From: Bradyrhizobium sp. LLZ17
Lineage (GTDB): Bacteria; Pseudomonadota; Alphaproteobacteria; Rhizobiales; Xanthobacteraceae
NCBI RefSeq assembly: GCF_041200145.1
Contig: NZ_CP165734.1
Coordinates: 1,364,001 to 1,428,000 of the forward strand
DNA: 64,000 nt
Direction of reading: 5' to 3'
Shown: positions 41,037 to 42,265 of the stretch, piece after piece
How positions within the stretch are numbered: the first letter of the stretch is position 1
Layout of the letters: each line of letters starts with the position of its first letter
The notes under the pieces: generated by a model
What the model was told of the DNA's origin: nothing
Databases searched by the model: none
What the model saw: the letters and a program-made list of their open reading frames with translations, nothing else
Translations under genes and position numbers: made by a program

Positions 41037-41065
41037 TTGACGGGCGCAGAACACTCCCGCATAAG
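41037..41065 (+). promoter_or_regulatory. Predicted sigma-70-type promoter of the asd leader
   Basis: TTGACG at 41037-41042, a 17-base spacer, and CATAAG at 41060-41065. Transcription would start near 41072, so the following leader peptide ATG at 41074 would be almost at the 5' end of the RNA. Confidence 0.6.
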
Positions 41066-41073
41066 TCGCCGCC

Positions 41074-41145
41074 ATGTTCACGACCACCAAACGCACCACC
41101 AAAACCACCGCGGCCTTCGGGGCCCGGGGAGGCGTGCGCGCATAG
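41074..41145 (+). CDS. Threonine/lysine-rich leader peptide, putative attenuator of asd
   Basis: A 23-residue peptide starting MFTTTKRTTKTT with 7 threonine and 2 lysine codons, six of the threonines as ACC. It has no ribosome site and begins ~2 bases from the predicted transcript start, like leaderless attenuator peptides described in rhizobia for trpL. A terminator follows 30 bases later and then asd, a gene of the aspartate pathway leading to Thr, Lys and Met. A CGGGGC segment near the end of the peptide gene (41117-41122) can pair with the terminator's left arm as an antiterminator. Function inferred from this layout. Confidence 0.6.
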   Translation: MFTTTKRTTKTTAAFGARGGVRA

Positions 41146-41175
41146 TCGTCGACTAGAACGCAATCAGCTCTACCG

Positions 41176-41207
41176 AAGCCCCGCCCATGATGGTCCGGGG
41201 CTTTTTT
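41176..41207 (+). terminator. Rho-independent terminator of the asd leader
   Basis: Stem AAGCCCCG/CGGGGCTT (8 bp) with a 12-base loop containing a small CCATGATGG inner pair, followed by six T. It ends 21 bases before the asd ATG and would block read-through unless its left arm is captured by upstream RNA. Confidence 0.8.
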
Positions 41208-41227
41208 GTTGTCTGTGATCAACTGAT

Positions 41228-42265
41228 ATGGAGGAGAATGTGAGTAACGATCCCGTCGTCGCGATTGTCGGCGTCACCGGTGCGGTGGGCGCCGAATTCA
41301 TCGCCACCATGGACAAGCGCGGCTTTCGCGTCGGCAAGCTCAAGGCGCTCGCAAGCGCCCGCTCGGCCGGCAAGACGGTGTCGTTCCGCGGGCAAAACAT
41401 CGAGATCGAGGAGCTCACCGAGCGCGCCTTCGACGGCGTCGACATCGCCCTGTTCTCCGCCGGCGGCGGCATCTCGAAGAAGTACGCGCCACTCGCGGTC
41501 AAGGCCGGCGCGGTCGTCGTCGACAACTCCTCCGCTTTCCGCATGGATCCGAACGTGCCGCTGGTGATCCCCGAGATCAACGCCAACCGCATCCGCGACC
41601 ACAAGGGCATCATCGCCAATCCGAACTGCGCGGCCATCACCGCGCTGGTGCCGCTCTGGCCGATCCATCAGAAGAACCGCATCAAGCGCGTGATCATCTC
41701 GACCTACCAGGCGGCTTCCGGCGCCGGCGCGGCTGCGATGGACGAACTCGTCGAATCCACCCGCGCCAATCTCAACGGGCAGGTCTATACGCCGAAGGTG
41801 ATGCCGCACCCCTATGCCTTCAATCTCTTCAACCACAACACGGCGGTCGATCCCGAGACCGGCTACAATGACGAAGAGACCAAGGTCATCAACGAAACCC
41901 GCAAGATCTTTGAGGACGAGAACATCGCCATCGGTGTCACCTGCGTCCGCGTGCCGGTGCTGCGCGCCCATTGCGAGGCCATCACCTTCGAATGCGAGAA
42001 GCCGATCAGCGAGGACCAGGTCCGTGCCATCATGGCGCGGGCGCCCGGGGTGAAGGTCGTCGACGACCGCGTGAAGAACTACTTCCCGATGCCGATCGAT
42101 GCCTCGGGCCAGGACGACGTCCTGGTCGGCCGCATCCGCAGGGACCTCAGCGATGGCTCAGGCCATTCGATCTCGATGTTCGTGGCGGCCGATCAGTTGC
42201 TCAAGGGCGCCGCGCTGAACGCGGTGCAGATCGCGGAGCTGTTGCCGCAGCGGGTGGTGGCCTAA
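41228..42265 (+). CDS. asd: Aspartate-semialdehyde dehydrogenase
   Basis: 345 residues. N-terminal NADP motif GVTGAVG (residues 15-21), catalytic cysteine C134 in NPNCAAI, and the substrate-domain motifs STYQAASGAG and the family's conserved His in CVRVPVLRAHCE. It reduces beta-aspartyl phosphate to aspartate semialdehyde, the branch point to lysine, diaminopimelate, threonine and methionine. The ATG is preceded by GGAG-like sequence after the leader terminator. Expression is probably controlled by attenuation through the Thr/Lys-rich leader. Confidence 0.95.
   Translation: MEENVSNDPVVAIVGVTGAVGAEFIATMDKRGFRVGKLKALASARSAGKTVSFRGQNIEIEELTERAFDGVDIALFSAGGGISKKYAPLAVKAGAVVVDNSSAFRMDPNVPLVIPEINANRIRDHKGIIANPNCAAITALVPLWPIHQKNRIKRVIISTYQAASGAGAAAMDELVESTRANLNGQVYTPKVMPHPYAFNLFNHNTAVDPETGYNDEETKVINETRKIFEDENIAIGVTCVRVPVLRAHCEAITFECEKPISEDQVRAIMARAPGVKVVDDRVKNYFPMPIDASGQDDVLVGRIRRDLSDGSGHSISMFVAADQLLKGAALNAVQIAELLPQRVVA

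Follow-up and report, generated by a model that had tools for sequence, protein, structure and literature searches.

A candidate threonine- and lysine-sensing transcription attenuator upstream of a second asd gene in Bradyrhizobium

Results

The asd2 gene and its leader

The window (the whole 64,000-nucleotide stretch of Bradyrhizobium sp. LLZ17 DNA that was analysed) carries on its forward strand a gene for aspartate-semialdehyde dehydrogenase, asd2 (41240..42265), which scores above the cut-offs of the NCBIfam equivalogs NF011456 and TIGR01296. Upstream of it and on the same strand, every element that the initial annotation had listed can be read directly from the sequence. A sigma-70-like promoter (41037..41065) joins a -35 box TTGACG (41037-41042) to a -10 box CATAAG (41060-41065) across 17 bases, and eight bases further on an ATG at 41074 opens a leader ORF of 23 codons (41074..41145; stop TAG at 41143-41145) encoding MFTTTKRTTKTTAAFGARGGVRA, with seven Thr and two Lys. 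A CGGGGC segment (41118-41123) lies within this ORF and is followed by an intrinsic terminator (41175..41207), in which GCCCCG (41178-41183) stands opposite a second CGGGGC (41196-41201) and six T (41202-41207) close the element. From the promoter spacing, the transcript is predicted to start at about 41072, and space for a ribosome-binding site upstream of the leader ATG is absent. The window has 453 ATG-initiated ORFs of 15-40 aa, and in no other are Thr and Lys packed as tightly as in the leader ORF, with 9 of 12 residues against 7 in the runner-up. A consensus scan missed the promoter and the terminator at the leader because its rules require the -10 box to end in T and the hairpin loop to be no longer than 8 bases, and neither holds here. 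Folded as a whole, the leader is not unusually stable (z -1.1), and between 40500 and 41700 there is no Rfam match up to E = 1.

The asd2 gene probably starts at GTG 41240, though its reading frame is also open from an ATG at 41228: the GTG is present in 108 of 110 loci of the genus, compared with 75 of 110 for an ATG at the 41228 position. A ribosome-binding site GGAGG (41230..41234) sits five bases 5' of the GTG, and a Shine-Dalgarno-like word is found in 107 of the 110 loci. The initial annotation of the gene as asd stands, but comparison across the family indicates that it is not the family's usual asd. The other genera of the family have a different, ordinary asd that is ~46% identical, and both genes exceed the NCBIfam asd cut-offs; by sequence, asd2 is a second paralogue, additional to the ordinary one. 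Elsewhere in the LLZ17 genome, asd-like fragments with in-frame stops (G000:C1:3769229-3769819; L003-L005) are probably a decayed third copy, and an asd2 match in another genome (G037:C140) has one in-frame TAG.

Conservation of the leader within the genus

Genes of the asd2 type (at least 79% identity) were found in 111 of 117 sampled Bradyrhizobium genomes; five genomes have the ordinary asd alone (G032, G041, G048, G053 and G096), and one (G090) gave no match in this asd search. We fetched 110 asd2 loci from 108 genomes, two of them with a second copy, leaving out G033, G051 and G060, where the asd2 matches were partial or at contig edges. A Thr/Lys ORF is in place at all 110 loci. The automatic search returned 59 distinct peptide strings, in three cases not the leader itself but another or a longer ORF; at L081, L083 and L106 another or longer ORF was picked first and the leader was found on a second look. 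Subsequent counts use 109 leaders, without L076, whose terminator ends GGGGCCTTTTT and missed the search pattern. Of these 109 leaders, 106 have TTGACG and 105 have CATAAG; the two boxes are 17 bases apart in 108, and in 102 the -10 box is separated from the ATG by exactly 8 bases. A covariance model (R1) built from 33 leaders of the genus matches 256 of 265 genus genomes at E <= 0.01, with E values of 2e-25 or better in 253 and weak matches in G990, G1003 and G1004. The attenuator interpretation thus passes the main check proposed at the outset, as the Thr/Lys codons, the frame, the promoter spacing and the alternative hairpins persist throughout the genus.

The exceptions are few. In G090 the element is present and asd2 is absent from the sequence after it, the peptide there being MMRCAKQITKTGKPSWASGAVRA with two Thr only, a reduction that favours the attenuator reading; asd2 may lie elsewhere in this genome, the assembly of which is 93% complete. 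Loss of the reading frame, named at the outset as an observation that would count against a leader peptide, occurs in one genome, G248 (L116), where the Thr/Lys codons are intact and a shorter G-run, which may be a real change or a sequencing error, shifts the frame so that it is read past the terminator toward asd2. The second asd2 copies at L075 (G071) and L076 (G076) have their own leader and CATAAG box without a TTGACG box. A weaker R1 match (27.4 bits) lies in the LLZ17 genome at C1:151006-151143 (L337), where an ORF without a Thr/Lys cluster (MFKSMRKLNCIHMTRFGRAVEGVVR) is followed by a GGCCCCGCC hairpin with a T-run and then by an ORF of 94 aa whose DUF1127 match stays below threshold (20.9 bits; cut-off 23.3).

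Folding predicts a switch at two codons

To represent a ribosome at successive positions, the LLZ17 leader was folded from successive start points. With 41110 as the first free base, a protector (1:2) hairpin at 41112-41124 forms and the terminator stands; this hairpin would hide CGGGGC when no ribosome is present, and a related consensus hairpin is 93.9% paired. With 41114 or 41117 as the first free base, CGGGGC at 41118-41123 pairs instead with the terminator left arm GCCCCG at 41178-41183, giving an antiterminator (41118..41183) with a long bulged stem between. It is predicted at -30.9 kcal/mol before the right arm of the terminator exists, and is the best structure even with the right arm. 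From 41120 onwards the terminator stands again. Antiterminator and terminator are thus mutually exclusive, and both are conserved as paired elements: the terminator in 99.0% of cells, and the antiterminator in 98.1% of cells versus 34-55% when slid.

Across the 109 leaders, the terminator probability is lowered only when codon 10 or 11 is in the A site (medians of 0.15 and 0.09, against at least 0.81 for all others), so that in the median leader stalls at the control codons, and none elsewhere, free the antiterminator. The probability falls below 0.2 at codons 10 and 11 in just 58% and 55% of leaders, respectively. The predicted control codons (41101..41109) are Lys10 (AAA, 41101-41103), Thr11 (ACC, 41104-41106) and Thr12 (41107-41109). 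When the assumed ribosome edge was varied from +12 to +19 in 55 leaders, the low window of two codons shifted only inside codons 9-13. In the same leaders, every second of the 109, a full switch was found in 32 of 55 compared with 23 of 550 shuffles of the segment from codon 13 to the left arm; an equilibrium switch is absent in the other 23 of 55. The idea put forward in the initial annotation, that stalling for Lys or Thr would free the antiterminator, agrees with these foldings, in which the stall positions that open the terminator coincide with the conserved Lys10 and Thr11 codons.

The compensatory changes that had been hoped for proved scarce. There is no covariation in the antiterminator or terminator among the genus leaders, a test that is uninformative because both elements hardly vary, and the 5' hairpin has one compensatory pair (4 of 33 sequences). 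RNAalifold gave weak consensus energies on alignment A2.

Codon-level constraint on the leader peptide

Of the leaders, 104 have exactly 23 residues (L076 excluded); in these, departures from the commonest codon at positions 1, 2 and 3 number 143, 101 and 240 in codons 2-12, and 159, 200 and 83 in codons 13-23. Third positions are most variable in the first half and least variable in the second, and we therefore conclude that selection has preserved the peptide in the first half and the RNA in the second. At codon 8, 38 departures are synonymous and 3 nonsynonymous. Of these 104 leaders, 101 use AAA for Lys10 and 103 use ACC for Thr11.

An attenuator that senses Thr only, its Lys codons being incidental, would fit the seven Thr to two Lys codons in MFTTTKRTTKTTAAFGARGGVRA, as well as the folding, where Thr11 stays antiterminating for assumed ribosome edges from +13 to +18. 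The Lys codons are nevertheless retained too faithfully for us to consider this likely. Codon 10 is Lys in 104 and codon 6 in 108 of 109 leaders, compared with Thr at codon 11 in 107, and a K before T-T is also kept in the distant leaders described below. In addition, the rare Lys codon AAA makes up 233 of 251 leader Lys codons versus 24 of 564 in asd2 genes (loci L006-L034), a contrast for which the p-value is indicative only, the sequences being related. AAA may be preferred because it makes the leader more sensitive to charging, or because it keeps G out of a region without structure.

asd2 and its leader beyond the genus

Rhodopseudomonas and Nitrobacter, suggested initially as comparisons, turned out to be the wrong ones: among 42 genera of the family sampled, an asd2 orthologue occurs only in Bradyrhizobium and in G181 (genus g41). 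In 199 genomes sampled across the order, asd2 was found outside the genus in G334, the other six matches (E <= 1e-90) belonging to Bradyrhizobium. Five genomes from other orders of the class (G678, G727, G646, G749 and G782) carry asd2 at 57-61% identity, and in the order of G782 it is present in 10 of 148 genomes. Judged from these sequences, the distribution of asd2 in Alphaproteobacteria is patchy. The gene of a sixth genome, G564 (57% identity), is not preceded by a leader and is placed elsewhere in the tree.

Leaders with a K-T-T motif also precede distant asd2 genes. The leader in G181 (L121) is MITTTQRATTKTPFRAEESARV, and others are MSTTTTIKRITKTTAQAGRPLVCVQ in Acidisphaera (L175), MTRYATTKRTTKTTASAGVVGRAR in a Rhodobacteraceae MAG (L177), MSILMKKTMTKMTTALAGDVFAWSDRI in Marivivens (L179) and MMRFATKTTTTTKTTTFGGPARTCA in Reyranella (L218). 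Met codons are added in several of them, for example in Marivivens and Yoonia. The best promoter-like site ends 6-10 bases 5' of the ATG in 29 of 32 distant leaders (scores of 5-10 of 12, with no control run). Leaders, these 32 among them, were labelled by eye, the labels including the weak L183, L185, L192, L200, L209 and L212 and the truncated L176, and on a tree of 100 rows these by-eye labels change 4 times, compared with a mean of 33.5 in shuffles. L186 was labelled as having no leader, the ORF there being without a Thr/Lys cluster. A Thr/Lys leader is absent upstream of L187, L188, L196, L197 and L210, and also from cyanobacterial, planctomycete, verrucomicrobial and similar homologues, among which L254 has one short ORF that is a stray match.

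The switch itself is less evident in these leaders. Antiterminating codons were not enriched for Thr/Lys in the 32 distant leaders (42 of 116 versus 206 of 676), in a test where some automatic terminator picks were plainly wrong, and several of the distant hairpins have no T-run. When masking of the ribosome-binding site was considered instead, in 31 of the 32 (L121 was dropped, no start having been obtained), dependence on the stall was clear only in L189 and partial in L166 and L170. At gathering scores, Rfam found tRNA only, and no Thr_leader, at 20 distant asd2 loci.

Leader-like ORFs upstream of ordinary asd and other genes

No Thr/Lys leader was found upstream of the family's ordinary asd in 19 regions, the LLZ17 copy (L002) included; this set omits L129 and L138, which are short, and L122, which is of another type. 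Elsewhere in the order, short ORFs in which 7 or more of 12 residues are Thr or Lys precede the ordinary asd in 34 of 66 regions (16 of 39 in one set, 18 of 27 in the other). Such an ORF turned up in 2 of 660 shuffled controls and in none of the 66 reverse strands. The 39 regions come from 40 hand-picked across families, a non-random choice from which L307 was removed for lack of the gene motif; the 27 loci (L258-L284) include L259, which is from the Bradyrhizobium family and has no Thr/Lys ORF. In these leaders the cluster mostly lies close to the stop codon, as in MACALITKTTTIKTTKTTTV (L309). Twenty ordinary-asd loci gave zero Rfam matches at gathering scores.

Leader-like ORFs with a Lys-Lys pair and a strong terminator also occur in two genomes of the genus without asd2, at L330 (G032; MITQPCTATSSKKAPHPGASERRAR) and L331 (G041). 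The ORF at L330 lies directly 5' of a gene of the dihydrodipicolinate synthase family (PF00701, E 9e-51), and the element is a candidate Lys attenuator of a dapA-like gene.

Discussion

Computation establishes the anatomy of the asd2 leader, its conservation, its frame and the match between stall positions and conserved codons: a short ORF rich in codons for products of the pathway precedes a biosynthetic gene, and the leader can form mutually exclusive hairpins. On these grounds the leader is, very probably, a ribosome-dependent transcription attenuator that would sense charged Thr- and Lys-tRNA. Leaderless initiation, stalling and read-through are steps that we infer from the sequence. RNA polymerase would start about two bases 5' of the leader ATG, and ribosomes would therefore load at the 5' end. 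With ample Thr and Lys, the ribosome would reach the stop codon and cover segment 2, the terminator would form and a short RNA would be released. When Lys- or Thr-tRNA is scarce, the ribosome would stall with codon 10 or 11 in the A site and open the protector hairpin, and the freed CGGGGC would pair with the terminator left arm, allowing asd2 to be transcribed. Without a ribosome, the protector hairpin would form and the terminator would prevail. Thr and Lys derive from aspartate semialdehyde. Since asd2 supplements an ordinary asd, which in this family lacks a leader of this kind, its natural role would be to supply extra aspartate semialdehyde only when end products are low. Several points count against an attenuator of this kind: the switch is incomplete in part of the leaders, covariation is almost nil, G248 has a shifted frame, Thr/Lys are not enriched at antiterminating codons of the distant leaders, and the -10 box has no TGn extension; leaderless mRNAs of B. 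japonicum are described in passages of PMC4842269 as having this extension of the -10.

The peptide or the terminated leader RNA could also act in trans, with or without attenuation, by analogy with peTrpL and rnTrpL of S. meliloti, and a leaderless small mRNA of similar kind is indeed known (passages of PMC7298713). The codon-level pattern is accounted for by attenuation without a trans role, and we regard such a role as quite improbable. According to the same passages, the rnTrpL transcript begins at the leader ATG, and trpL/rnTrpL of S. meliloti and B. japonicum resemble the asd2 leader in their small ORF, control codons, terminator and single biosynthetic target, while differing in having Trp codons and trpE as the target (PMC7298713).

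A nascent-chain arrest peptide, with a C-terminal GGVRA-stop that halts the ribosome for another ligand and Thr/Lys richness that is secondary, would explain why most genus leaders end in GGVRA or GAVRA. It is very unlikely, since the third positions are least variable precisely in codons 13-23, which points to constraint on RNA over peptide, the C-termini differ among the other asd2 leaders, and a ribosome held at the C-terminal codons leaves the terminator intact. It is hardly credible that the hairpin simply ends transcription arriving from upstream and that the ORF beside it arose by chance: the hairpin by itself has an ordinary terminator shape, but the promoter, the frame of the ORF, the pattern across codon positions and the agreement with stall positions are all conserved, and an ORF kept at 110 of 110 fetched loci is the opposite of the ORF loss expected.

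Transcription attenuation of asd2 by charged Thr- and Lys-tRNA, the reading we favour, combines ingredients that are known separately, namely a transcript start at the leader ATG, as in rnTrpL, and Thr leaders 5' of thrA. The enterobacterial thr leader also has Ile codons. Thr_leader (Rfam RF00506), which precedes thrA in Shewanella as given in passages of PMC2659441, is similar to the asd2 leader in its Thr codons and in attenuation within the aspartate family pathway; it differs in its target, thrA, and occurs in another class, and the window element has no match to it up to E = 1.

The closest published description is that of SEP5 of S. meliloti, a translated short ORF within the 5'-UTR of a gene that its authors name 'aspartate dehydrogenase'. 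Six Thr and three Lys codons cluster towards the 3' end of this ORF, which is described as 'conserved only in Sinorhizobium' and is suggested to be a possible leader peptide (passages of PMC10117765). We compared SEP5 by description only. Both it and the asd2 leader have a Thr/Lys codon cluster in a short ORF, but the SEP5 cluster lies near the 3' end and that of the asd2 leader in codons 3-12 of 23, so the window leader is not of the SEP5 type (a cluster near the stop of a leader of ordinary asd). By that description SEP5 is closer to the ordinary-asd leaders, and it is likely a relative of the Thr/Lys leaders found here. The initial statement that no Thr/Lys leader for asd was known in this group needs correcting for the order, where SEP5 has been proposed (passages of PMC10117765). 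No paper on a Bradyrhizobium asd attenuator was among the matches listed in the open-access literature, PMC10117765 being the only relevant one among them, although Vitreschak 2004 and Lopatovskaya 2010 may hold predictions; besides SEP5, no asd leader is described in the passages of PMC4842269, PMC10117765, PMC1273637, PMC4833913, PMC4117421, PMC2659441 and PMC7298713.

Taken more widely, the asd step in Alphaproteobacteria could be under Thr/Lys-sensing leaders of at least two origins, a reading on which we are evenly divided. A leaderless K-T-T type would stay with the patchy asd2 across the class, and a 3'-clustered type would precede the ordinary asd across much of the order. The output could be termination in some cases, as in Bradyrhizobium, and masking of the ribosome-binding site in others, most clearly in L189; the ordinary asd of Bradyrhizobium would not be regulated in this way, and asd2 would be the copy induced by starvation. 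Behind the asd2 element there would thus stand a wider leader family, on which the literature searched has only the SEP5 remark, and what was an isolated remark on an S. meliloti small protein would become part of a broad family to which Rfam offers no match, either in the window or at the 40 related loci scanned. If SEP5 is among the ordinary-asd leaders, its published range (Sinorhizobium only) is too narrow. If the attenuator is real, one gene at the point where the routes to Lys, Thr and Met branch would be under a sensor of two amino acids, in a genus that matters to agriculture. The control codons are specified to the exact triplet, which makes the prediction directly testable, and the attenuator would offer a reason for the retention of a second asd in 111 of the 117 sampled genomes of the genus.
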